Positions 11,810-30,068 of a stretch of 64,000 nucleotides of DNA are shown piece after piece. The notes beneath the pieces are model-generated. The model was given only the letters and a program-made list of their open reading frames with translations. It did no database searches and was not told the DNA's origin. A program made the position numbers and the translations under genes. The stretch is from Bacteroidota bacterium (lineage in GTDB: Bacteria; Bacteroidota; Ignavibacteria; Ignavibacteriales; Ignavibacteriaceae): positions 1 to 64,000 of the forward strand of contig JADFLR010000007.1 in NCBI GenBank assembly GCA_022564295.1, in the 5' to 3' direction. Position 1 is the stretch's first letter, and the number at the start of each line of letters is the position of its first letter.

Positions 11810-12305
11810 ATGGAATTACCGGAGTACCAAATTGGTTTTGAGAAAATGTTTAATACCGAAGATCAATGCTTGCAATATGTTATTGAGATGAGATGGCCTG
11901 ACAGATACGAATGTTTTCGTTGTAAGAATAAGTCCTTTTGGATTGGAAGTAAAAAACGGATTATATGCACAAGATGTGAATTTCAAACAACAGCTATTGC
12001 AGGAACCATATTTGAACAAACTAATAAACCATTATTATTATGGTTTATGGCAATTTGGTGGATGATATCTCAAAAAAATGGAGCGAGTGCAAGTGGATTG
12101 CAAAAAATACTAGGATTAGGCAGTTATCTAACAGCGTGGACTTGGTTACAAAAACTAAGATTATTAACAGTAGCTCCCGATAGGAAAAAATTAATAGGGA
12201 AAGTTGAAGTGGATAGAACATTTGTAGGGGGAAAAAAGAAGGTAAAAGAGGAAGAGGTTCCGAGAACAAAAGCTTGGTGGTAATTGCTGTGGAAGCATTA
12301 AAGAA
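11810..12305 (+). pseudogene. IS1595-like transposase, N-terminal fragment
   Basis: The first about 165 residues look like the start of an ISXO2/IS1595 transposase. There is a zinc ribbon (CFRCKNKS ... CTRCEFQTT), then the stretch GTIFEQTNKPLLLWFMAIWW, and the first catalytic Asp in GKVEVDRTFVGG. The frame ends at 12283, but the family's next segment (KRGRGSENKSLVVIAVE) continues in the -1 frame after an A AAA AAG heptamer at 12232-12238. After about 12305 the sequence changes to an unrelated IS1182-type transposase, so the rest of this element is gone. Confidence 0.75.
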
Positions 12306-13134
12306 AGGTACGGCAAGAAAACCTGGTAAACCTTTGGCGATGTATTATTCTACACATTATGGTTTAGATAGCAAGAATAAAATTATTACAGATGTTTTAA
12401 CAACCTATGCAGATATAATAGACTCACGGGCGTTAATAGATGTATTTAACAGAACAGAAAACAGGTTAAATGATTTAGGATTAACAATACAAAAAGTATC
12501 AGCAGATAGAGGATATTGTTCAGGAGAAAATTTAAGGGACCTTGAGAGCAGAGGTATAACCCCATATATCCCAATACAAAAACAAGTAAATTTTACGAGT
12601 GGATTTACTATTGAAAAATTTATTTATGACGAAGAAAAAGACTTATTTATATGTCCAAACAATAAGGAGTTAAGCTTCCAAAGCTATAATAAGAAAAACA
12701 ATCAAACCGGCTATGTAAGTAATAAAGAAGACTGTAGAGGATGTCCTCTTAAACAAAAGTGCTGCCCTAATTCCAGCAAAAGATATCTAAGCAGAACTAT
12801 CTTTTATAAAAAATATGAAAGACTATCATTAAGGCTTAAAACGCCCGGTGGAAGAGAAGCATATGTATTAAGAAAAACAGATCCCGAAACACTATTTGCT
12901 GAAGCTAAAATGTATCACGGATTATCAAAATTTATGACAAGGTGAATAGATAAGTGCCTCAAGAACTCTCTGATGATCGCTACAGTACAGAACCTAAAGA
13001 GATTAATGAGCGTTAAGAAGCGAAAAATGAGAGTGGCAATCTCTCAGAAAAATTATTTAATTGAATTTATAATTGAAAAATTAAAAAAACTCTTTTATTT
13101 AGAATTATGTTTTCCAACTGAGTCTATTCGTTAA
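12306..13134 (+). pseudogene. IS1182-like transposase, C-terminal fragment with in-frame stop
   Basis: From about 12306 the frame encodes the DDE part of an IS1182-type transposase: KPLAMYYSTHYGLDSK, then VSADRGYCSGENLRDLES, and a Cys-rich insertion (CRGCPLKQKCC). A TGA at 12943-12945 interrupts it. The same frame then continues for about 62 residues with IATVQNLKRLMSVKKRK, the usual C-terminal end, to a stop at 13132-13134. The TGA probably replaced a glycine codon (RG is usual here). The N-terminal half is missing and replaced by the IS1595 piece. GTGCAACAGACTC just after (13141-13153) may be the element's terminal repeat. Confidence 0.75.
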
Positions 13135-15443: not shown

Positions 15444-16674
15444 ATTAGTCGTTACTGAAAAACTCATTTATTTTTAATAAAGACAAATGACTGGACATTT
15501 AATTTGGGGAATAAGAGAAAATATTTTTCTATAATCTGATTTTTCAACCAGTTCAAAATTGGCAATAAGAAAACTCCATAGAGTTTTCTCAAATTAAATC
15601 CATCCTGCAAAGCGGCACTAGCACTGCATTGATATGATCGCCGTCTTTGCCTTTTAGTAAATTCCTCTCAAGTCTATTGTCCGATTTTAAGTGGCCAAAT
15701 ATTGGTTCAATAGCACTTCTTCTCTTCAAACATTTTATTAAACTTTTTGATTTGTTTTTCATTGTTCGTCGGTTTACTATGTTAACCTGTGCCTGCCCAT
15801 CGTAATCGTGCCCTCTATAGCCTTAGTCTACATTGACATTCCTTGCTTCCCAGTTCGTTATTTCCTCTGCCTTTCTTAGCATGTCCCGATAGACTCGCCC
15901 CAAATATGTCTTCAGCTTCTTTGTCATTTTTCTTGCCCGTTTCATCTGCCTGGCGTGTGCATAGCCGGCTTGTTTGGTCAATGCTTTCTTTGATACAAAT
16001 TTATAGCTCTGCCGAAGTTTTATCCCTCTTGACTTGGACTGCTTTACTAAGTCTTCCAGCATTTTGTAATACAGTTTTGCATCCGTAGGAAAACTGATCG
16101 CTTTCTCTTGCACCGTAGTATCTACATTTAGGTGTTCAAAATCATTTTCTTTTAGTTGATTGCTGCTCTCTGCACTTTTTAATGTCTCTTTGAATAGTTC
16201 CTCTATTGTTTGATTACCCATTCTTTTTCTGAATCTTGTCATACTGCTCGAGTCTATTGGTAGGTTGTGTTCAAAGTATTCGTTACCACGGAAGTATTGA
16301 TAATATGGATTCTCTATAAACTTTTGCACTATCATCTCATCACTTTCATTATACATATACTTTAAATACTGCAAGCCCACCATTAAGCGTATCTCTTTTG
16401 CTGGCGCTCCCATTTTCTCTGAGTATTTCTCTGAGAGTTTCTCCTCCAGATTTTTCCAGTTAATAGCATCTGATAATTTTACCAATGGGTGTTTTTTATT
16501 GATGATTTCCTCTAAGCGTACTTTGAAGATTTCCAGGGTCTTTTTCTTGTTCTTTGGTTTTATTTTTTGCAAGCTTTTGTTATTGTTTTTTTTTGCTTGC
16601 AATTTATTAATTATTTTTCTCTTTATAAATTCTTTTATTACTTTATGTTAACTGTTTTTTCAGCGACGACTAAT
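15444..16674 (-). mobile_element. IS5-family insertion sequence with visible terminal inverted repeats
   Basis: Imperfect terminal inverted repeats bound a 1.23-kb element. The left end ATTAGTCGTTACTGAAAAA (15444-15462) matches the complement of the right end, ATTAGTCGTCGCTGAAAAA (16656-16674), at 17 of 19 positions. The enclosed transposase gene fills the element. Any short target duplication is hard to define because the outermost bases are themselves palindromic. The element separates the decaying plus-strand half of the metabolic island from the intact minus-strand operon. Confidence 0.8.
15464..16602 (-). pseudogene. IS5-family transposase with one internal stop and one frameshift
   Basis: From the ATG at 16600-16602 the frame encodes the IS5-type N-terminal domain (GAPAKEIRLMVGLQYLKY), then IDSSSMTRFRKRMG, and the first catalytic Asp in LNVDTTVQEKAISFPTD. 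A TAA at 15823-15825 interrupts it exactly where family members have VDxGYRGHD. The frame then continues with GYRGHDYDGQAQVN and the catalytic-Glu region RRSAIEPIFGHLKSDNRL. Near 15596 a frameshift moves the normal ending NLRKLYGVFLLP to another frame, which stops at 15464-15466. Two lesions therefore disable a gene that is otherwise full length, indicating recent death. Confidence 0.85.
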
Positions 16675-17495: not shown

Positions 17496-18716
17496 CTATT
17501 TTTTCCTCTTAAATAGTAATACTCTTTTTAAGTAATGGAAACCCAGCATCAGCCAGGGGAGGGGATCTTTCCATGAGAATACTTCATAGCAATGTATTTT
17601 AGCAATACTCTTTAAATAAGATCTCAAAGTATTTTTATTTTTCCGATGAGCTTCCAAAAACGATAAAAAATCCCGGACAGGTCTGATCAAAGTTGTGTCT
17701 TTACGATAGTTTTCGTAAGGTGGAAGTTCTCTCCCAACTAATCGATTATAAACGAAGAGAGCAATATCAAAACCAGATCTTATAATTAATTCAGTAGCAT
17801 TTGTAAGACGGGGATTACACTCCATCAATTTTAAAATACCATCACGAGGATCAAGTTTAAATTCAATGTTGCCCAGACCCAAATAGTCCGCCCCTTGCAT
17901 AAATTTTAAACCAAGCTCTGCAACTTGAGGATTCCAATCTCCAATCGTTTGATAACTACCAAATCCAGAATATATTGGGTACTGTCTTGGTTTACGTTTT
18001 GTGAAATGCATGAGAGGGATTCCGTTTTCGTCCAGATAAGAATAATAACTTTGAATCTGGTTTTCTCCTACTCCGGGAATGATCTCAGTTACAATCAGGT
18101 CCGATCGAAATTTATATTTTTTGCCAAGTTTATACAGTCTTTTAAATTCAGATAATAACTCAACTTGATTTTTAACTATAAAAAGTTTTTTTAGAAAGTT
18201 ACGCCCCCGAAACTCGTGAGAAAATCGTGGTTTCAATGCACAAGGATAAGGGAGAGAAGACATAATACCCTCTAATTCTTCCACTGAATTTATACACCAT
18301 GTTTTAGGTGCTGGAATGCCAATTTTATCTGCAATTTTATAAGTTTCAGCTTTATCTAGCATTGCAAGCATAAGACTATCATTCGATTCAGGTAAAATAT
18401 AGTGATCAGCAAGCTGCATCCGATACCGTGAAACCATATCAATAATATTATCAGAACAAGGGAAAATAACTGCTCCTCGAAATTGCTCTAAAGCATCGCT
18501 AGTTAACCAATGTACCCAGTCCTCTATACATTTCCCAGTAAATTGAATTCGATTACTATATTTTGAAAATCGACCATAGTTTTGAGGAATATTCAGCGTA
18601 TAAATTGGAATACCTTTATTGCCCAAACTTCTTGCCACTGAAAGTGAAACAACGCCCCCATCTAAAAGAAGCACAGGAGGTGATTCAGAAATGTCTCTTT
18701 TATGTCTTATTTGCAT
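17496..18716 (-). CDS. ATP-grasp ligase (COG3919-like)
   Basis: This 406-residue ATP-grasp protein has a Rossmann-like pre-ATP domain (VLLLDGGVVSLSVARSLG, residues 16-33). The ATP-binding start is KIGIPAPKTW...YPCALKPRFSHEFR, and the C-terminal metal-binding segment is LGLGNIEFKLDPRDG...LMECNPRL, with paired Glu/Asn for magnesium. It resembles predicted carboxylate-amine ligases such as D-aspartate ligase relatives rather than the CphA type next door. Its start overlaps the preceding CphA-like gene by 17 bases, implying translational coupling and probably a shared pathway. Two dissimilar ligases in one operon suggest two successive condensations. Substrates unknown. Confidence 0.8.
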   Translation of the reverse strand: MQIRHKRDISESPPVLLLDGGVVSLSVARSLGNKGIPIYTLNIPQNYGRFSKYSNRIQFTGKCIEDWVHWLTSDALEQFRGAVIFPCSDNIIDMVSRYRMQLADHYILPESNDSLMLAMLDKAETYKIADKIGIPAPKTWCINSVEELEGIMSSLPYPCALKPRFSHEFRGRNFLKKLFIVKNQVELLSEFKRLYKLGKKYKFRSDLIVTEIIPGVGENQIQSYYSYLDENGIPLMHFTKRKPRQYPIYSGFGSYQTIGDWNPQVAELGLKFMQGADYLGLGNIEFKLDPRDGILKLMECNPRLTNATELIIRSGFDIALFVYNRLVGRELPPYENYRKDTTLIRPVRDFLSFLEAHRKNKNTLRSYLKSIAKIHCYEVFSWKDPLPWLMLGFHYLKRVLLFKRKK

Positions 18717-19809
18717 GATCTATCCTCTCAGTTTTATTTATATTTAGTAAACAGCTAAGTATGGGAATGGCAACTAGTACCCTATTCTCAGAATTTAGTA
18801 CCTGGTAGTGATAATGAAGACCGGGAGACGCATTAATTTCAATTATCTTTCCGCCAGTTTGTTTCAAAGGAGATTCAATATTAGTGGTAATTACATCTAC
18901 TCCTGCCAGTTTTATACCCAATACACTCACAGCTCTTCTACATTCTTCTACTATTTCATCATTAATAATATTGATTACTGACTCGCATTCATTCGCTCCA
19001 CTATCGTTTGTTGTTGATTTTATTTCTATTATTTGACCTTCTTTCGGTACATCTTTTAAGGAGAGACCAGATCTTTGAAGTGTCATTTTACAATCGACAT
19101 CTATAACCAGAACTTTCAATGAAATAAACCCTGCTAGTCCAGTCCGCCGTTTATTTTCTTTTTTTATTAAACTTCGTATTGTTGAATTTCCATCTCCAAT
19201 AACCTGTGGTGGAATTCTGCGAATTACATCAAGCAATTCCCCGTTAAGAAATAACAATCGATATACATTACCCGGGATCAATCTCTCTATGATAACAGTA
19301 GGGCTAAAAGCAGATGCAAACAATGCAGCACGTTTTAAATCAAGACTAGATTTTATATGTGTAGTAACTCCCTTTCCACCTGCGCTATCTAATGCTGGTT
19401 TCACAACACAAGGTGCATCCTGGGAATCTAAAAAGTCTTTTGCCAATTCAATATTATTAATCGAAAAAGTGCGAAAAGGCGGAACTGGAATCCCATTTTC
19501 TAATAAAATTTTGCTGACAAGGGGCTTATTTCTTGCCACCTGAAGCAGCGCATAACTATCAATTCCAACTAAATTGTCCATTATCCATGTTGTCATTCCC
19601 TTATAAGTGGCTTTATAAAAACCCCCCGAATAATTTTTTATATCGACAGAAAGTTTAGATGCAGCATCAAACCACATATTCTTATGAAATTCTGAAAAGG
19701 TGTCCTTAAGCCCTAGACCATGACCTGCTAATTTATTCCAATAATGTCTTAGAAAATATAGTATACGCAGAGAACTATTAATCCATTTATTTAATTTGAT
19801 AAACTTCAT
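18700..19809 (-). CDS. ATP-grasp ligase, cyanophycin-synthetase-like (stand-alone domain), copy 2
   Basis: This 369-residue paralogue of the protein at 8647-9798 shares family landmarks: CVVKPALDSAGGKGVTTHI, IIERLIPGNVYRLLFLNGELL, RIPPQVIGDGNSTIRSLI, and the C-terminal GVDVITTN...IIEINASPGLHYHY. The N-terminal 80 residues are divergent. Like copy 1 it lacks the Mur-ligase part of cyanophycin synthetase, so polymer formation as in CphA is unlikely. It sits mid-operon after the HpcH/HpaI aldolase (57-base gap) and overlaps the next ATP-grasp gene. It probably activates a carboxylate as acyl phosphate for amide formation. Confidence 0.8.
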   Translation of the reverse strand: MKFIKLNKWINSSLRILYFLRHYWNKLAGHGLGLKDTFSEFHKNMWFDAASKLSVDIKNYSGGFYKATYKGMTTWIMDNLVGIDSYALLQVARNKPLVSKILLENGIPVPPFRTFSINNIELAKDFLDSQDAPCVVKPALDSAGGKGVTTHIKSSLDLKRAALFASAFSPTVIIERLIPGNVYRLLFLNGELLDVIRRIPPQVIGDGNSTIRSLIKKENKRRTGLAGFISLKVLVIDVDCKMTLQRSGLSLKDVPKEGQIIEIKSTTNDSGANECESVINIINDEIVEECRRAVSVLGIKLAGVDVITTNIESPLKQTGGKIIEINASPGLHYHYQVLNSENRVLVAIPILSCLLNINKTERIDHANKT

Positions 19810-19866: not shown

Positions 19867-20658
19867 TTACTTCTGTATTAATGTATTCCTTACTCCTTCG
19901 ACTTCCTGTTTAGCTCTTGACATCAAAAAGCGGTCATCGCTTTGGAGTGAGACTAGTTGAAATCCTTCCTTAATCATTTCCACGGCTACATTCACTGAAT
20001 TTGTATGTATGCCTGCTGGTATACCATAATGTTTTGCCTTTTTCAGGATCTCTTGTCTCGCCTCTATAAACTCAGGATCGCTTTGCCCTTTACGTGGTTC
20101 TTTACCGAGCGCCATGGCCAAATCTGATGGGCCTATGTAAATGGCACCAATTCCTGGAGTAGTAAGAATCTCATCAAGATTTCTTATCGCCTCACGAGTT
20201 TCAATCTGCGGGATGACCAATGTTTCCTCATTCGCATAATTGTGATAATCACCACCTCCGTGTATAGCACCTCCACTAGAGTATTTTGTCCTAATTGGTC
20301 CAAAACTGCGATAACCTTGTGGCGGATACTTGCAAGCACGTACAAGTGATTCGGCATCTTCAGAATTATTAATCATCGGACAAATAACTCCATATGATCC
20401 AGCATCTAATATTTTCATTAGTATGGCAGGATCATTCCAGGGTACTCGAGTAAGTGGTATTACACTCGTCGATGATATCGCTTGTAACATTGTAACAGCA
20501 ACTTGGTAATCAACGAGCCCATGCTGCATATCAATTGTGATAGAGTCAAATCCCTGATGAGCCATGATCTCAGTAGAGAAAGAACTTGGAATTGAACACC
20601 AACCATTAATTACTGATTCACCACGATTCCATATTTCTTTTATAGTATTTTTTCTCAT
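19867..20658 (-). CDS. HpcH/HpaI-family class II aldolase
   Basis: This 263-residue TIM-barrel aldolase is related to 4-hydroxy-2-oxoheptanedioate and 2-keto-3-deoxy-L-rhamnonate aldolases. Signature segments are DSITIDMQHGLVDY, IPLTRVPWND, GSYGVICPMINN, the metal-binding IPQIETREAI, and IYIGPSDLAMALG. These enzymes reversibly condense pyruvate or a 2-oxo acid with an aldehyde. In this operon, preceded by a lactonase-like protein and two dehydrogenases, it could make or cleave a 2-keto-3-deoxy sugar acid. A full set of metal-binding residues is visible, so it should be active. Confidence 0.88.
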   Translation of the reverse strand: MRKNTIKEIWNRGESVINGWCSIPSSFSTEIMAHQGFDSITIDMQHGLVDYQVAVTMLQAISSTSVIPLTRVPWNDPAILMKILDAGSYGVICPMINNSEDAESLVRACKYPPQGYRSFGPIRTKYSSGGAIHGGGDYHNYANEETLVIPQIETREAIRNLDEILTTPGIGAIYIGPSDLAMALGKEPRKGQSDPEFIEARQEILKKAKHYGIPAGIHTNSVNVAVEMIKEGFQLVSLQSDDRFLMSRAKQEVEGVRNTLIQK

Positions 20659-20771
20659 CTAAAGCTCCTATGCTAAACTATTTATCTTAATTAATCTCAA
20701 ATATTGATAACTCATCTTAAGAAAATATGACTAAAAGTAAAAAGTAAAATGTAACATTCTATTTTTTCTAA

Positions 20772-21455
20772 TTATGGTGCACAATAGACAGCGACCGGTA
20801 TGTCAACCTGCGATAGAATAAGCCGTAGAGGAATCTCATTGTGAGGTCCAGGAGTTTTGGCTCTAAGGTATACCGAATGTTTTTCCTCACCCGAAAACAA
20901 TAAATAAATCTTTCGTGCTTTAAGAATAGCCGTTGCTGTAAGAGAAATTCTCGCTAACCGGGAATTTGTACCTGCAATGGCGACACAAAGAGAATCAGAT
21001 ACATTAAGAGCATCATCTCCTGGGAAAAGAGAAGCAAAATGTCCGTCGGTTCCCATTCCCAGATATACAGCATCAAATGGTAATAGTAAAGTTTTAAGTC
21101 GCGATTCACAAGATTTCACATCTGCCTCGAGAGATCCATGCCCTCCGTATAATGGAATGAAAGTGGTATCTTCTGACAAATATTTCAACAAATACGAACG
21201 CACTAATTGCTCGTTACTCTCCGCATGATAATTTGGAATCCATCTTTCATCTGTGAGAGTTATTGTAACATTATTCCAATTCAACCTGTGTTCACGTAAA
21301 TATTTAAATACTTTTCTGGGGGTTTTTCCACCAGAAACCGCGAGGAGTGCCTGACCACGGATGGATATTGCTTCACGCAGAGTACTCACCAAGTCTATTA
21401 CTAACGCAGAAGCAGCGTCTTCAAGGGTTAAGAATTTTCGTTCGTCTACTACCAT
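20772..21455 (-). CDS. 6-phosphogluconolactonase-like protein (NagB/Pgl superfamily)
   Basis: This 227-residue protein has the superfamily's phosphate loop ALLAVSGGKTPRKVF (about residues 36-50), then VTITLTDERWIP and LGMGTDGHFASLFPG, all characteristic of the DevB/SOL-type 6-phosphogluconolactonase. The reaction is hydrolysis of a phosphorylated aldonolactone. No glucose-6-phosphate dehydrogenase is present. Instead a Gfo/Idh oxidoreductase two genes upstream could generate the lactone. A role in a dedicated sugar-acid pathway seems likelier than the oxidative pentose phosphate route. The preceding gene is 23 bases away. Confidence 0.82.
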   Translation of the reverse strand: MVVDERKFLTLEDAASALVIDLVSTLREAISIRGQALLAVSGGKTPRKVFKYLREHRLNWNNVTITLTDERWIPNYHAESNEQLVRSYLLKYLSEDTTFIPLYGGHGSLEADVKSCESRLKTLLLPFDAVYLGMGTDGHFASLFPGDDALNVSDSLCVAIAGTNSRLARISLTATAILKARKIYLLFSGEEKHSVYLRAKTPGPHNEIPLRLILSQVDIPVAVYCAP

Positions 21456-21478
21456 TTTCCTTTTCTAATTTAATACCT

Positions 21479-22426
21479 TCACATATTATCCTGATCGGGT
21501 ATTTCATTTTTATCAAGTCCTGCAATTGCCGCTCTTCCCATAGCCAACACTGCTTCTTCAGAACTCCCACCAATGTGCGGTGTTGCCATAAAATTAGGTA
21601 ACTTTAATAGCTCTAAATCTTCTGGTGGTTCTGTGCCAAAAACATCAAAGCCTGCCCCCGCAAGTTTTCCGCTCTTTAGCAATCGTTTAACCTCATCTTC
21701 GTCAACCAATCCACCGCGAGCAGTATTGATAAGAATCGCACCTGATTTCATCATTCGCAACTGATCAGGACCTAATATACCACGCGTAGTATCATTTAGA
21801 GGGACGTGTATAGTAACGATATCAGATCGACGTAAAATTTCATTCAGCGTTACTGACTCAACATTATGAGATTTATAAAAATCAGGAAAATCCAAAATGT
21901 CATTTGCAAGTACCGCGCATCCGAATGATCGCAAAATGATAGTTAAATCTTTACCAACATTACCACAACCAATAATTCCGACGGTGTGATTTGAGAGTTG
22001 CTTACCTATAATATTCCTCCAAATACCTTTACGGATATCTAGCTGTATTTGAGGTAATCTTCTAAGAATTGAAATCATAAAAGCGATTGTTAATTCGGTT
22101 ACAGAACGTTTATTAACACCTGGTGTCCAACCCAATCTAACACCATGCCTGGACATAGCAATTATGTCCAGCATATCAGTTCCAACTCCATATTTACTGA
22201 TCACTTTTAGTTCAGGGAGTTTTGATAGCATAGATTCATCAATCTTTTCTAAACCAATAATCAATTTTTCTTTCCCTTTAGCAAAATTGACTAATTCCTG
22301 ACCGCTCAAAGATATACCTTTATCATTAAAATGTACATTTATATATCTTTCCAATAACTCAGCACACAATTTTGTATGTTTTGAGAATGAACGTGAAGCG
22401 ACAGCGATTGGAGTTGTTGATTTCAA
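21479..22426 (-). CDS. D-isomer-specific 2-hydroxyacid dehydrogenase (phosphoglycerate dehydrogenase-like)
   Basis: This 315-residue protein has the NAD-binding loop VGIIGCGNVGKDL. The catalytic Arg lies in INTARGGLVDEDEV, followed by a Glu-containing segment and the catalytic His in ATPHIGGSSEEAV. It lacks the ACT/regulatory domain of SerA, so it is a short-form enzyme. Members reduce 2-keto acids to D-2-hydroxy acids or the reverse. It starts 22 bases after the Gfo/Idh gene. The order Gfo/Idh, 2-hydroxyacid dehydrogenase, lactonase, aldolase suggests stepwise handling of a sugar acid, though the true substrate cannot be read from sequence. Confidence 0.88.
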   Translation of the reverse strand: MKSTTPIAVASRSFSKHTKLCAELLERYINVHFNDKGISLSGQELVNFAKGKEKLIIGLEKIDESMLSKLPELKVISKYGVGTDMLDIIAMSRHGVRLGWTPGVNKRSVTELTIAFMISILRRLPQIQLDIRKGIWRNIIGKQLSNHTVGIIGCGNVGKDLTIILRSFGCAVLANDILDFPDFYKSHNVESVTLNEILRRSDIVTIHVPLNDTTRGILGPDQLRMMKSGAILINTARGGLVDEDEVKRLLKSGKLAGAGFDVFGTEPPEDLELLKLPNFMATPHIGGSSEEAVLAMGRAAIAGLDKNEIPDQDNM

Positions 22427-23955: not shown

Positions 23956-24912
23956 TTAAGTATTCATCATATAATTAAAATAATAGCGATACTTTGTTAG
24001 TATATATTTAAATAACGGAATAGAAATGATCGAAACCAAAATCTTATAGGTCCATTTTAATTCATCTCGCCATTTTACGTCTTCAATGATAGGGATCTTG
24101 CCAGTGGTTAACCTGAGTCTATTGCCTGAAAACACGTGTCCCCCCAGTTTCTGGTTCAATGAAACTCTGCCATTTTCTACAATATATTCAAACTTAAGAT
24201 TCAGGGATTTCTCTAATATATCTAATACATGAACCGAATTATTTGTAAAATAACTATACGACAAATAGATTTTATTTGTTGTGTTAAAGCTTTTCATGGC
24301 ATTCAGACTTAGAAGACTCTTGATACCCCATTTAAGAATCTGCATTATAACACTATGTTTCTTTTTGCCATAGTTCCTAATATCCTTTTTAATATAAGAG
24401 TTGACTACGCCTCTGGGGTCTCTTATTATATAAATCGGAAACACATCCAATTTTGTGGATTGCGAAATAGCGAGTAATCTCACAGGGGTTCTGGAAGTAT
24501 CAACTATAATTTTTCCACCGCTAAGTTTAGAAATAATTTCATACAGCTTTTCAGTATGTTTCAAGTAATTATCTAAAAAAAGCTGATATGATTTATCATT
24601 TTTATTTCTAATAAATTTTTTTAATTTAAAATAATTTGTCCATTTCTCAAACTTTCCAAGTTCTTCTGTTATTTTCTCTATACTTTCTGAAGGAAATGAA
24701 TTTATATATTCATTCTTTACATTTTGCCAAAAGTTACAGTTACTGAACCTCTCGCCGCAACTGCATTGTTGATTGGTTATTATTCCAAATGTATAGAAGT
24801 CTCTTACTTCGCCGACAAAAATCACTTCCTTTGAACTCATTAAACTTTTGCCAAGGATAGTTCCACCGCTGAGCCAGAATCCTGTTATAAATACAACTTT
24901 TGTTTTTCCCAT
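23956..24912 (-). CDS. PAPS-dependent sulfotransferase
   Basis: This 318-residue sulfotransferase has the 5'-phosphosulfate-binding loop TGFWLSGGTILGKSL (about residues 10-24) and the 3'-phosphate-binding segment IYIIRDPRGVVNSYIKK (about residues 164-180). A Cys-rich insertion CSCGERFSNCNFW, common in this bacterial subfamily, lies near residue 53. It would move sulfate from PAPS to an acceptor, most likely a sugar hydroxyl of a surface glycan, given the adjoining nucleotide-sugar and glycosyltransferase genes. APS kinase and ATP sulfurylase genes lie immediately upstream on the same strand. No membrane segment is obvious, so it acts in the cytoplasm. Confidence 0.85.
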   Translation of the reverse strand: MGKTKVVFITGFWLSGGTILGKSLMSSKEVIFVGEVRDFYTFGIITNQQCSCGERFSNCNFWQNVKNEYINSFPSESIEKITEELGKFEKWTNYFKLKKFIRNKNDKSYQLFLDNYLKHTEKLYEIISKLSGGKIIVDTSRTPVRLLAISQSTKLDVFPIYIIRDPRGVVNSYIKKDIRNYGKKKHSVIMQILKWGIKSLLSLNAMKSFNTTNKIYLSYSYFTNNSVHVLDILEKSLNLKFEYIVENGRVSLNQKLGGHVFSGNRLRLTTGKIPIIEDVKWRDELKWTYKILVSIISIPLFKYILTKYRYYFNYMMNT

Positions 24913-25071: not shown

Positions 25072-25551
25072 TTACAGAATTTTCAGGGGATATAATATTT
25101 GTCTTATGATAAGGTCAGGATGACCAGGTTCTTGATAAGGTATTTTATCACTGAATCCTATTAGGTTATCCAGCTCGCCGTTAAGCGCCTTTTTATAAAG
25201 TCCCTTTGTATCTCTTTCGATTAAAGTGTCTTTATCACATTTAAGATAAACTTCAAAATAATCATTACCGAATGTTTTTCGTGCATACTCCCTTACCTCA
25301 TTAAAAGGTGTAATTAATGAGATTATTATATAATCAACTTTACCTTTAACCTTATTGATTTTATTAATTACTTCGAAATTATTTTTTAGAATACCTTCTT
25401 TAGAAAAATCCGATTCAATCTTCAATTCTTCCCTAACTCTGTCTCCATCATACCATTCAACAGAATAATCATTACTCTTCAACATATCCGCAAGTAAACT
25501 GCAGATGGTTGTTTTACCGGAACCTGAAAGACCTGTACACCAAATAATCAT
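25072..25551 (-). CDS. cysC: Adenylylsulfate (APS) kinase
   Basis: This 159-residue P-loop kinase converts APS plus ATP to PAPS. The Walker A is GLSGSGKTT at residues 7-15, followed by EWYDGDRVREEL, and the family lid region ERDTKGLYKKALNGELDNLIGFSD. It is about 15-40 residues shorter than typical CysC, with a minimal N-terminus. The segment TPFNEVREYAR replaces the commoner SPFRADRDxxR. The gene begins 18 bases after the pyruvate kinase-ATP sulfurylase fusion stops, so the two are co-transcribed and act in sequence. The sulfotransferase follows 159 bases downstream. Confidence 0.9.
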   Translation of the reverse strand: MIIWCTGLSGSGKTTICSLLADMLKSNDYSVEWYDGDRVREELKIESDFSKEGILKNNFEVINKINKVKGKVDYIIISLITPFNEVREYARKTFGNDYFEVYLKCDKDTLIERDTKGLYKKALNGELDNLIGFSDKIPYQEPGHPDLIIRQILYPLKIL

Positions 25552-25569: not shown

Positions 25570-27768
25570 TTAACTTATAAATATTTGTTCGTTTTCTTCC
25601 ATCATGTTTACCAGTAAGTCTGAAATCTCTTCCCTTAATAAATATTCAGGGGGTCTTTTATTACTGATCAGGCAGTTTCTTATTTCGGTTGCGCTAAGCT
25701 TTATTTTATCTTTATCCAGATGCTGACATCCATTGGTTACATATCCGCACGTATTACAGTAATACGCTGTTTCAAAGAAAATCGGCTTTATTCCAATTTC
25801 CCCTATCTTATTGAAAATTTCTTTTGAGGCATTTGCACTATAATAATCGCCAACTCCTGTATGATCTCTTCCTATTATAAAATGACTGCATCCAAAGTTC
25901 TTCCTGCATAATGCAGTAAATACTGCTTCACGAGGACCGCTGTATCGTGAGTAAGTACTAAATGCACCGAGCAAAACTTTGAAAGGATCGTATAACCCTT
26001 TTGAAATGATTTTCTCATAGCTTCCGATAATTGCTTTGGATACAAAATCACCTTTTTTCTTAGGCCCGATGACAGGACTGATTAACAGTCCATCTGCATT
26101 AACCATTTCTAAAGCTTTCTTTTGTATAAATTCATGTCCCCGGTGTAGTACGTTTCGTGTATGAAACCCTACTACAGTAGCCATATTAAGATCTCTTAAT
26201 ATTGATCTAATCTGTTTGGGAGTTAATACATAAGGCGTGTAAACACTTTCTCTTCTTAACCTAAATACATCTCCGCTTATTATATAATCACCTCTGCTTT
26301 TAAAATATCTTACTCCCGGGTGTTCATCATCACTACTGTTAAACCATCTCTTTGCAACAGAATTCAAGTCTGAAATTCTCTCAATATTTTTTACTTCCAG
26401 CATTCCAATTAGTTTATCTTCCTGCTTGCTAAATAAAAGAACCTTTTCATTTATTTTAAATCCAATATCTTCTTTATTCATCTGAAGCAAAATTGGCAGA
26501 GTCCAAACATTTCCATCAATCAATCTGCAAGCATCCAGCACGGAATCCATTTCCCTTAAATCCATAAAACCGGTAATGGGTGAATAAGTACCTGATGCTA
26601 ATTGTTCCAGGTCTAATGCTGTTTGTTCATCGAGATAAATTTTTGGTAAGTTTTTGCTTTCAATTTCCTTCGCATCTTCATCCCAATAATTTTGTACAAG
26701 TTCGCCGCCGTGAGGAAGTATCAAACTATTCTCGTATACTTTATCTATGTACTTGTGAATATTAAGTTCAGTGTAGTGATTTAAATAATTTGTAGTCTCT
26801 TCAATTATTCCTGCTGCCATCCTTACAACCTCAACAGGATGATTACCAATAGCAGTTTCTGCAGCTAATACTAAACCCTGAGCACCGTTGAAAAGGGTGC
26901 TTGTTATATCATTTATTTCTGCCCTGTTTGGTTGTAAACCTGATATCATGCTGTCTAAAAGATTAGTAGCAACATAAACCGGTTTTTCAAATTTATTTGC
27001 AAAGTTAACTATATACTTTTGCATTACACCTACCTTTTGCAGCGGGATTTCTTTAGACAAATCTCCTCTGTCAATTAATATTGCATCTGTTGCTCTTACA
27101 ATATCTTTTAGATTTGAAAGAGCGTTATAGCTTTCTATCTTACTTATAATAAAAACAGGATAATCAAATTGTTCTCTTACCCAGATTATGTCTTCTTTTT
27201 TATATGTAAAAGATAAAGCATAATGAGTTATTCCTAACTCTTTTCCTTTTAGTAAAGCCGCGTAATCTTTATCTGTAAAAGCCGGTAAATACGGCATACG
27301 ATCAATAGATATTCCTTTATTGCTTCCTACAATTCCTCCTTCTATCACCCTGCCTAAAACTGATTTGTCCTCAACCTTTATCACTTGAACTATTACAGAA
27401 TGAAAATCTATCCTTAATACATCTCCAACCCTTAAAATTTCCTCCGGTATTATAGGATAAATTGACAACCTTGTACCGCTTTCAATCTCATTATACTTTA
27501 CAATTTCAATTAATGTATTTGCCTGCAAAACAATTTGACCATTTAAGTATTTTCCGGTTCTTATTTGTGCACCTTCAGTGTCAAGACATATCGGCTTTTT
27601 AGTCCATGATCTCAGTTTATTTATTACTTCATCTAAATCTTCAATTGCAGTATGTGATAAATTAATCCTGAATATATCCGTACCCCATCTGTCCATTTCT
27701 TCAATAATGTTTTCTTTTAAAGATGTTGGTCCTATTGTTGCAATTATTGTAATTCCGCTGTTCTTCAT
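25570..27768 (-). CDS. Fusion protein: pyruvate-kinase barrel + ATP sulfurylase
   Basis: This is a 732-residue two-part enzyme. Residues 1-330 match the pyruvate kinase A and B domains: FRINLSH (Arg34, Asn36, Ser38), CLDTEGAQIRTG (Asp63), ISKIES (Lys210, Glu212), DRGDL (Asp236), ATNLLDSM (Thr268), and RAEINDI. The regulatory C-domain of pyruvate kinase is absent. Residues 360-732 are ATP sulfurylase: HTRNVLHRGHE (536-546, usually QTRN), GPKKKGD, GRDHTG (633-638), a Cys cluster (671, 674, 681), and LSATEIR. One polypeptide could regenerate ATP from PEP and use it to make APS. Alternatively the kinase part may be regulatory. It is first in an operon with cysC. Confidence 0.9.
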   Translation of the reverse strand: MKNSGITIIATIGPTSLKENIIEEMDRWGTDIFRINLSHTAIEDLDEVINKLRSWTKKPICLDTEGAQIRTGKYLNGQIVLQANTLIEIVKYNEIESGTRLSIYPIIPEEILRVGDVLRIDFHSVIVQVIKVEDKSVLGRVIEGGIVGSNKGISIDRMPYLPAFTDKDYAALLKGKELGITHYALSFTYKKEDIIWVREQFDYPVFIISKIESYNALSNLKDIVRATDAILIDRGDLSKEIPLQKVGVMQKYIVNFANKFEKPVYVATNLLDSMISGLQPNRAEINDITSTLFNGAQGLVLAAETAIGNHPVEVVRMAAGIIEETTNYLNHYTELNIHKYIDKVYENSLILPHGGELVQNYWDEDAKEIESKNLPKIYLDEQTALDLEQLASGTYSPITGFMDLREMDSVLDACRLIDGNVWTLPILLQMNKEDIGFKINEKVLLFSKQEDKLIGMLEVKNIERISDLNSVAKRWFNSSDDEHPGVRYFKSRGDYIISGDVFRLRRESVYTPYVLTPKQIRSILRDLNMATVVGFHTRNVLHRGHEFIQKKALEMVNADGLLISPVIGPKKKGDFVSKAIIGSYEKIISKGLYDPFKVLLGAFSTYSRYSGPREAVFTALCRKNFGCSHFIIGRDHTGVGDYYSANASKEIFNKIGEIGIKPIFFETAYYCNTCGYVTNGCQHLDKDKIKLSATEIRNCLISNKRPPEYLLREEISDLLVNMMEENEQIFIS

Positions 27769-28335: not shown

Positions 28336-29109
28336 TTAAATTATACGCTTTACCACAAAGGAATTATTTAACAAATTTTGTTTGTTAAAACTCAACCCTG
28401 ATATATCTGCACCGGCATATTTAGCGATAGCATAACCTGCAGCCACATCCCATTCATTAGTTGGTCCATGACGATAATAAATTTGTGCAAGACCCTCTGC
28501 AACAATACAAAACTTTAATGAACTTCCGACTGAAATCGTTTCTTTAACATTATACTTCCTGAAAATCTCTTCTTCTTCAGATGAAGCATGTGAGCGGCTT
28601 CTTACGGCTTTAATATTACCCATATTATCAGTAAAGGGTAACTTAATAACCTCACTACCAGCAACCTTTTTGAATGAGCCTATTTCTTTTCCCCCATAAT
28701 AAAGAACGCCGGGGAAAGAAGCGGAATTGTTTATATTATTATTATATGCCGGAGCATAAATTATTCCTAATATTGGTTCGTTATTCTCTATGAGGGCAAT
28801 ATTAACAGTAAATTCACCATTCTTTTTTATAAATTCTTTTGTGCCGTCCAATGGGTCAACAAGCCAAAAACGATCCCAGTTTTTTCTCTCTTCGTATGAA
28901 ATATTCTTTCCTTCTTCTGATAAAATTGGGATGGAAGGATATAAAGAAATAAGTTTTTCTTTTATCAAATTATGTGCTGCTAAATCTGCCCGTGTGAGGG
29001 GAGAATTATCCGATTTTATTTCAACATTAAAATCATCTGAATTATATATTTCAATAATTATAGTCCCTGCTTCAATAGCAGTTTCAATAATTTTCTGAAT
29101 TTCTATCAT
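28336..29109 (-). CDS. cysQ: 3'(2'),5'-bisphosphate nucleotidase (PAP phosphatase)
   Basis: This 257-residue member of the inositol-monophosphatase-like family has the metal-binding residues in LSEEG (about 63-67), WLVDPLDGTKEF (Asp85, Asp88) and NEWDVAAGYA near residue 218. It hydrolyses PAP left by sulfotransferases, relieving product inhibition. It is complete, unlike the copy at the window start, with which it shares nearly identical sequence over the first 178 coding bases. Its location upstream of the sat-cysC operon and sulfotransferase completes a PAPS cycle. Start ATG at 29107-29109. Confidence 0.92.
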   Translation of the reverse strand: MIEIQKIIETAIEAGTIIIEIYNSDDFNVEIKSDNSPLTRADLAAHNLIKEKLISLYPSIPILSEEGKNISYEERKNWDRFWLVDPLDGTKEFIKKNGEFTVNIALIENNEPILGIIYAPAYNNNINNSASFPGVLYYGGKEIGSFKKVAGSEVIKLPFTDNMGNIKAVRSRSHASSEEEEIFRKYNVKETISVGSSLKFCIVAEGLAQIYYRHGPTNEWDVAAGYAIAKYAGADISGLSFNKQNLLNNSFVVKRII

Positions 29110-29222: not shown

Positions 29223-30068
29223 TCAAGCTTTATTGATATTATTTTTTGTATTATGATTAACAAAAGCATTTCGTGTATCGATAATAAGCTGAGCATTTTC
29301 AGCAATCATCTTGTAATCGAAGTTAGAATGATTTGTACTTAAAACAACCAAATCAAATTCCCCAATTATCTCTTCATTTATATCAATGGAATCTATTTTA
29401 TAATAATAATTTCTTGTTTTTTGAATCTTTGGGACATAAGGATCATTGTAACTAACCAGGGTACTTTTTTTACTGAATATTTCTATTAGTTTCGATGTTG
29501 GTGATTCTCTCATATCATCAATATCTTTTTTATAGGAGGCACCAAGTATTAAAACCGACGAACCATTTAAAGATTTCTTGACTTTATATAATGCTTCAAT
29601 AGATTTTTCAACAACGTAAAGGGGTTGAAATGTATTTATCTCACCAGCCAATTCAATAAATTTTGTATTTATTTCAAATTCACGTGCTTTCCATATAAGG
29701 TAAAATGGATTAATAGGAATTCGGTGACCTCCCAAACCCGGACCAGGGTAGAAAGCTGTATATCCGAATGGTTTTGTTGGCACTGCTTTAACGACTTCTC
29801 AAATATATATATCCATCCGATCAAATACCATTTTTGATTCATTTACAAGAGCTATGTTAACAGATCTATAATTATTCTCAAGTAATTTTGTTGCTTCGCA
29901 ACTCTTGGTGAAGATACAGGCACTTTTTCAACAATAACTTTGTCGTAAACTGCTAAAGCAACTTTTAGTCAATTTTCTGTTACACTGCCAACAATTTTAG
30001 GTATTGTTGATGTTGAAAATATTGCATTATTGGGGTTTTCTCTTTCCGGGCTAAATGTCAGTATAAAA
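29223..30068 (-). pseudogene. Decayed UDP-sugar 6-dehydrogenase (WbpA/WecC-like), second copy
   Basis: This aligns along its length with the functional enzyme at 3339-4667 but lacks about the first 160 codons. The readable C-terminal frame (29223-29783) keeps FGYTAFYPGPGLGGH and LGASYKKDIDDMRESP. The catalytic cysteine is replaced by arginine (GGHRIP instead of GGHCIP) and the following Asp by Asn (PIN). Upstream, a Trp codon has become TGA at 29799-29801, and a small deletion near 29900 shifts the frame. Similarity ends abruptly near 30055-30068, where an oppositely oriented T9SS tail begins. It is an inactive relic of a duplicated glycan locus. Confidence 0.9.

Follow-up and report, generated by a model that had tools for sequence, protein, structure and literature searches.

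A conserved fusion of a pyruvate kinase core with ATP sulfurylase as the possible core of a PAPS-making module

The window analyzed here, a stretch of 64,000 nucleotides, carries on its minus strand (25570..27768) a single open frame of 732 amino acids in which a pyruvate kinase (PK) core is fused to an ATP sulfurylase (ATPS). Three Pfam domains were recovered on that strand: the PK A/B core (PF00224, residues 7-315, 26824..27750; 197.4 bits versus a cut-off of 30), the ATPS N-terminal domain PUA_2 (residues 351-502, 26263..26718; 122 bits versus 27), and the ATPS catalytic and C-terminal part (PF01747, residues 513-720, 25609..26232; 226.3 bits versus 24.3). The ATPS half contains the motif FHTRNVLHRGH, and the Pfam scan found no match to the PK C-terminal domain family in the 732 residues. 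The initial annotation of this DNA, which described one uninterrupted frame joining a PK A/B core to an ATP sulfurylase, is thereby confirmed. Both halves belong to known superfamilies, yet score under the stricter curated cut-offs of ordinary members: 251.6 bits versus 306.4 for the pyruvate kinase equivalog TIGR01064 and, for the ATPS half, 292.6 versus 322.95 (TIGR00339) and 368.4 versus 387 (NF003166).

An AlphaFold2 model of the fusion was built from an input alignment of 46 family members, all of which match the PK, PUA_2 and ATP-sulfurylase Pfam domains above cut-off. Its mean pLDDT was 89.0 and its pTM 0.70 with weak confidence in the linker, so that the placement of the two halves relative to each other should be read as a prediction. 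In comparisons with solved structures (Foldseek, VIA-align), residues 348-732 matched ATP sulfurylase 8a8g (Z 48.4, rmsd 1.8, 375 aligned residues, 38% identity) and residues ~1-344 matched solved PKs with Z of ~34-36 (5ws8_A, Z 35.8, rmsd 4.7; 2vgf_B, Z 35.2, rmsd 2.1). The model, a check that the initial annotation had proposed, thus agrees with a PK A/B core followed by a domain resembling solved ATP sulfurylases; a PK-ATPS fusion chain was absent among the solved structures listed as matches.

Genes around the fusion point to sulfation. An APS-kinase-like gene (25072..25551, minus strand; PF01583, 119.5 bits versus 21.1) starts 18 bases past the fusion's stop codon and retains the P-loop and DGDxxR, while scoring below the TIGR00455 cut-off (126.3 versus 138.7). 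Beyond it lies a tentatively assigned sulfotransferase-like gene (23956..24912, minus strand), which has no Pfam or NCBIfam match but shares 24% identity with the protein at +4 in another family locus (L092), which clusters with a Sulfotransfer_3 protein. CysQ, the 3'(2'),5'-bisphosphate nucleotidase that acts as PAP phosphatase, is encoded 566 bases upstream of the fusion (28336..29109, minus strand; TIGR01331, 263.5 bits, cut-off 228.8). Elsewhere, the genome encodes a 494-aa PK of the ordinary kind on the same contig, and contig C33 carries a second ATP sulfurylase, read as a 408-aa frame and a 61-aa piece, together with two more APS kinases; the fusion is therefore an extra system rather than the housekeeping one.

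A UDP-glucose/GDP-mannose dehydrogenase at 29223-29783 (minus strand) is readable as its C-terminal part only. After the sulfation genes come an HpaI-type aldolase, a 6-phosphogluconolactonase and a 2-hydroxyacid dehydrogenase (19867-22426, minus strand), and two ATP-grasp ligase-like genes (17496-19809, minus strand), one of which resembles the ligase part of cyanophycin synthetase at a score below cut-off. Transposase fragments (DDE_Tnp, DUF772) at 12274-12945 (plus strand) and 15823-16602 (minus strand) lie on one side of this glycan/sulfation block, which may be a mobile island.

To sample the family, one genome per species (84,980 species) was scanned using a pair of PK-half octapeptides, CLDTEGAQ and AILIDRGD. 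The scan returned 214 stretches, of which 128 were confirmed; the best 80 of these 128, the window and two megaplasmids make up the family set of 83 sequences. The megaplasmid members, from Sinorhizobium chiapasense and Ensifer adhaerens, came from a plasmid protein search as full-length homologues with 40% identity, and lie in regions of their records that have no gene annotation. An ATPS-half BLAST match was present in the PK frame in 72 of the 83; one of these members, L018, is divided between two frames, and single-frame fusions accordingly number 71. Two sequences, L036 and L093, are cut off by a contig edge, and eight PK cores stop without an ATPS (L050, L066, L068, L070, L072, L076, L084 and L092), among them L076, which begins at a contig edge and comes from the same isolate as L070. 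L067 retains only an ATPS remnant, which was found where a C-terminal APS-kinase domain had been looked for.

The family spans at least 16 named phyla, one of them archaeal, and many members are metagenome assemblies. Among 395 genomes of the window's own phylum, including its own, a full-length match at E≤1e-60 was found in its own genome only and two others matched the ATPS half alone, a weak negative, since for most genomes the first pass scored no more than two candidates; by this strict limit the fusion is rare in the phylum. Viral contigs scanned with the window protein, a search that reaches close relatives only, gave no match. A phage origin was rejected: 23 phage records matched, none over more than 80% of the query. 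In three small candidate-phylum genomes (G395, G396 and G397, carrying L014, L015 and L016) the fused PK was the sole PK match listed. The idea that it serves as the cell's only PK fails for G398 and G399 and, as the completeness of G395-G397 is not given, was not used.

This spread also settles whether the frame is real. The window by itself could not exclude an assembly or annotation artefact, and the initial annotation had named a join between two genes, or loss of both activities with no conserved relatives sharing the fusion, as findings that would overturn it. Conserved relatives do exist: a single frame encodes the two halves in 71 of the 83 sequences, across many organisms and on two closed rhizobial megaplasmids. 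We therefore regard an artefact as ruled out, with a probability that is negligible.

In the ATPS half, residues expected to touch sulfate have changed. In the structures described in passages of PMC3779200, Gln199, Arg201 and the amide of Ala299 bind the oxygens of the APS sulfate group, and the substrate site is called virtually identical across functions. The Gln of the QxRN motif is replaced by His (His536 in the window) in 65 of the 72 members that have an ATPS region and in all 63 intact fusions (nine of the 72, with a decayed or odd ATPS motif, were set aside), versus Gln in 29/29 ordinary enzymes. The Ala of GRDHA is Thr or Ser in 58 of the 63 (Thr637 in the window) versus Ala in 29/29, and His618 has become Thr in 60 of the 63 versus His in 28/29. 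The two other fully conserved contacts are retained, and Arg538 and Asn539 are kept in all 63. Both His of HxxH (H542 and H545 in the window) are present in 65/72, and HxxH, RN and GRDH are retained in most members; one or both HxxH His are lost in seven (L039, L049, L067, L074, L079, L080 and L091). Compared with Sat-type ATP sulfurylase of Methanothermococcus thermolithotrophicus (8a8d/8a8g), then, the fusion is alike in fold over residues 348-732 and mostly keeps the three motifs, and differs in having a PK core in front, His for Gln, Thr or Ser for the GRDHA Ala, and Thr for His618.

Most of the adjacent kinases have also changed at a sulfate contact. Passages of PMC4373884 describe Arg483 and Arg497 of Mycobacterium tuberculosis CysC as binding phosphosulfate, with Arg497 contacting both sulfate and adenine. 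The equivalent of Arg483 is kept in the partner kinases. The equivalent of Arg497, the Arg of GFSxxDR, is Ile54 in the window's kinase and is missing in 25 of 36 adjacent same-strand kinases, where 24 have Ile and one has Val; among 24 ordinary kinases, a single one lacks it. The other 11 adjacent kinases keep it; the rhizobial partner kinases retain it but differ elsewhere.

The PK half combines an almost invariant catalytic set with family-wide substitutions. Eight kinase residues that had been proposed as conserved are present in the window and nearly invariant across the 83 aligned sequences (Arg34, Asn36, Ser38, Asp63, Lys210, Glu212 and Thr268 in 83/83; Asp236 in 82/83). The family and ordinary PKs have R34, N36, D63, R70, K151, K210, E212, D236 and T268 in common, which we take to correspond to the PK residues that bind PEP, metal and ATP. 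Also borne out, and now seen to be family-wide, are two oddities read from the window: the Glu of LDTEGAQ in place of the usual Lys, and HTRN for QTRN in the ATPS half. Glu65 occurs in 81/83 and Gln68 in 83/83, although the search octapeptides bias counts at their own positions; among the 23 rows without an exact CLDTEGAQ the figures are 21/23 and 23/23, and among the 39 without an exact AILIDRGD Asp233 is found in 39/39.

We compared the family with 28 ordinary PKs from the window's phylum and two plasmids (all of the Lys117 class), counting a column as fixed differently when each set was at least 95% uniform. Ten columns qualified (family/ordinary): 65 E/Q, 67 A/P, 68 Q/K, 231 L/M, 233 D/A, 238 S/G, 269 N/Q, 270 L/M, 300 V/M and 302 A/S. 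Asp233 is present in 83/83 and Ala302 in 82/83, where the ordinary PKs have Ala (just ahead of RGD) and Ser in 28/28; in ordinary PKs this Ser has a part in the relay that protonates enolpyruvate. The A-to-D, Q-to-N and S-to-A changes are also seen against E. coli PykF, in which position 65 is Lys. At positions 113/114/117/120 (rabbit numbering) the window has T/E/Q/T and matches neither of the cation classes described in passages of PMC8835810, T113/K114/E117/T120 and L113/Q114/K117/(L,I,V)120. Other residues at position 117, Gln included, are known in some Crenarchaeota, according to a passage of PMC4374775. Eleven checked PK residues remain intact in six of the seven members that have lost HxxH and in seven of the eight standalone cores. 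Relative to solved or well-known PKs (E. coli PykF; M. tuberculosis PYK, 5ws8), the barrel, B domain fold and catalytic residues are thus alike, whereas the fusion is without the C-terminal domain and has ten columns fixed differently from the 28 ordinary enzymes.

These substitutions bear on what the PK half does. It may no longer be a pyruvate kinase, having kept the phosphate and metal site but passing phosphate to, or drawing it from, another small acid or an acceptor of the sulfation pathway, for example the precursor of a sulfated product; we consider this possible though unlikely. The fixed Ala233Asp, Gly238Ser, Gln269Asn, Met270Leu and Ser302Ala changes and the 65/68 loop, alongside retained phosphotransfer residues, would suit such a switch, and the T/E/Q/T set, fitting neither signature, agrees with it. 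So does a catalytic set that outlasts HxxH loss in 6/7 members and stands alone in 7/8. On the other hand, the swaps are placed in the pocket by sequence alignment, there is no substrate candidate, and the ATPS half and APS kinase partner would be left unexplained.

A second proposal is that the PK half is a regulatory domain whose binding of PEP or nucleotides controls sulfate activation. Enzyme-like domains fused to metabolic enzymes are often regulatory, and several PK pocket residues have changed, but the catalytic residues are fixed over 83 sequences even where the ATPS half is decayed or missing, which makes this proposal improbable. PEP sensing, suggested for the window's protein at the outset, is accordingly less likely as its main role. 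The companion suggestion that the kinase may be active holds as regards its retained catalytic residues; given the family-wide active-site swaps, ordinary PK or ATPS activity cannot be assumed.

Gene calls were usable in 78 of the 83 loci (five were without). Within three genes of the fusion or core, 38 of the 78 have an APS-kinase-like gene, which in 34 is the +1 gene on the same strand, and 32 have a sulfotransferase-like gene; either partner is present in 57 and both in 13, while 21 have neither and 40 have no APS kinase nearby. Of the 427 near genes, 39 were APS-kinase matches, compared with a single one of the 439 genes at a distance of six or more; for sulfotransferases such a contrast is circular, as their profiles were built from the neighbours themselves. 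Ten neighbour representatives comprised one APS_kinase, seven Sulfotransfer_1/_3, one Na_H_Exchanger and one NKWYS match, and of nine more, two matched sulfotransferase families, one below cut-off. An APS-kinase-like gene adjoins three of the eight standalone PK cores (L050, L068 and L070). Besides APS kinase and sulfotransferase there is no common extra partner, homologues of the other window neighbours being found in at most five other loci: 2-hydroxyacid dehydrogenase relatives occur in five, and a lactonase relative adjoins one (L048). In 13 loci, non-rhizobial ones included, a CPA2-type Na+/H+ exchanger is found close by (within two genes in L020, L035, L074 and L080, among others).

For 22 member genomes we looked up other sulfate-activation genes. 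A separate ordinary ATP sulfurylase is present in the genomes of five standalone cores (L050, L066, L072, L084 and L092), with none in L068 and L070; among decayed members it is found in L079, L080 and L091 but not in L039, L049 and L074. All eight of these enzymes carry the Gln and Ala. An APS kinase match was found in 21 of the 22 genomes, the exception being that of L074. In L066 and L072 a sulfotransferase-like gene lies directly upstream of the standalone PK core, and the ordinary ATPS and APS kinase are encoded elsewhere, an arrangement that also suits a PK half acting on another substrate.

Ordinary sulfate activation alongside a lone PK core favours a sulfation role and weakens the idea that the module makes a PAPS-like donor from a non-sulfate oxyanion, which the ATPS half would adenylylate before the kinase adds a 3'-phosphate. 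The Campylobacter O-methyl phosphoramidate pathway follows a comparable logic. Sulfate contacts are altered in two enzymes (Gln to His and Ala to Thr/Ser in the ATPS, Arg mostly to Ile in the kinase), and His618 to Thr (60/63 versus His in 28/29) adds a third ATPS swap. Yet the sulfotransferase-family neighbours and CysQ fit PAPS; 8 of 22 genomes, including ones with a lone core or decayed ATPS half, in which no special adenylyltransferase would be left, have an ordinary Gln-type ATPS; 11 adjacent kinases keep the Arg; and the Gln-to-His and His-to-Thr swaps could offset each other. We judge a non-sulfate donor to be improbable.

Family history was examined with trees from quick searches, with SH-aLRT support only. 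The 83 PK cores are separated from the 28 ordinary PKs by a branch with SH-aLRT 100, and the 29 ordinary ATP sulfurylases form one side of a tree with 69 fused ATPS halves (SH-aLRT 100). Standalone cores are scattered at several places inside the family in the PK tree, as are members with a decayed ATPS in the other; both trees place the window's protein alongside candidate-phylum (Parcubacteria-like) members. The best-fitting history would be one old fusion followed by losses or decay of the ATPS half. By sequence, the fusion is a separate subfamily with further active-site swaps beyond the Glu and His noted initially.

Taken together, the observed architecture, its conservation, the retained PK phosphotransfer residues, the ATPS motifs kept in most members and the gene neighbourhood lead us to prefer, tentatively and at somewhat less than an even chance, that the fusion lies at the heart of a module supplying PAPS to sulfotransferases, whose catalytic steps, substrates and coupling we infer as follows. 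The ATPS half would convert ATP and sulfate to APS and PPi, and the neighbouring kinase would phosphorylate APS to PAPS, releasing ADP. Sulfotransferases would spend PAPS on a glycan or other acceptor, with CysQ clearing PAP. Using PEP, the PK half would return ADP to ATP and keep ADP low beside the APS kinase, preventing a dead-end kinase-ADP-APS complex.

The original proposal that ATP regeneration from PEP could drive sulfate activation holds in its link to sulfate activation but not in its mechanism. ATP sulfurylase releases PPi and no ADP, APS kinase releases ADP, and PK acts on ADP; the fused PK therefore cannot directly pull the ATPS step. In an in vitro cascade described in passages of PMC9885120, hardly any PAPS was present when PK/PEP was left out, and including it gave a strong rise, an effect ascribed there to a dead-end kinase-APS-ADP complex. 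ADP recycling explains both the APS-kinase neighbour, beside three standalone cores too, and the kept PK residues. The PAPS-making module is further supported by Arg538, Asn539 and HxxH in the ATPS half, by sulfotransferase neighbours, by the in vitro effect, and by the ordinary Gln-type ATP sulfurylase of genomes that have a standalone core or in which the ATPS half is decayed. Recycling leaves unexplained the ten fixed PK columns, His for Gln among the ATPS sulfate-contact swaps, and the Arg lost from 25/36 adjacent kinases, all of which count against the module, as do the 21/78 loci with neither partner and the 40/78 without an APS kinase. Moreover, with an ordinary PK and ample ATP in the cell, local recycling may bring little. 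A broader proposal, which we regard as doubtful, is a PAPS-like pathway whose substrates have been re-specified, in at least 16 phyla: a PK-fold phosphotransferase not acting on pyruvate/PEP, a His-type adenylylating enzyme and an Ile-type 3'-kinase would together supply sulfotransferase-fold enzymes with a new donor or a co-made acceptor.

Several known systems offer comparison. Bifunctional PAPS synthases (human PAPSS1/2; Aquifex, 2gks) likewise couple sulfate activation to the next energy-using step and have an alignable ATPS half, but there the fused partner is the APS kinase, whereas the present protein joins its ATPS to a PK core, with the kinase encoded separately. The ATPS of CysDN/CysNC has a fold unrelated to the Sat type, with a GTPase where the fusion has PK. 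That system, too, ties sulfate activation to an energy source, namely GTP hydrolysis, as passages of PMC4373884 describe. Laboratory PAPS synthesis, in passages of PMC9885120, brings PK, ATP sulfurylase and APS kinase together, with PK removing ADP; those are separate enzymes mixed by chemists, whereas the activity of the natural fusion is predicted. A literature search, mostly outside subscription journals, found no description of the PK-ATPS architecture or its setting.

Sulfate activation is unfavourable and is known to be coupled either to hydrolysis of GTP, in CysDN, or to APS kinase through fusion; a widespread PK fusion would add a third arrangement. The family-wide swaps make PEP-driven PAPS synthesis and new donor chemistry directly testable against each other, and the fusion could yield a self-recycling PAPS enzyme for the synthesis of sulfated sugars. 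For the organisms that carry it, among them rhizobia, Planctomycetota, Omnitrophota and small-genome candidate phyla, the fusion marks candidate sulfated-glycan clusters.
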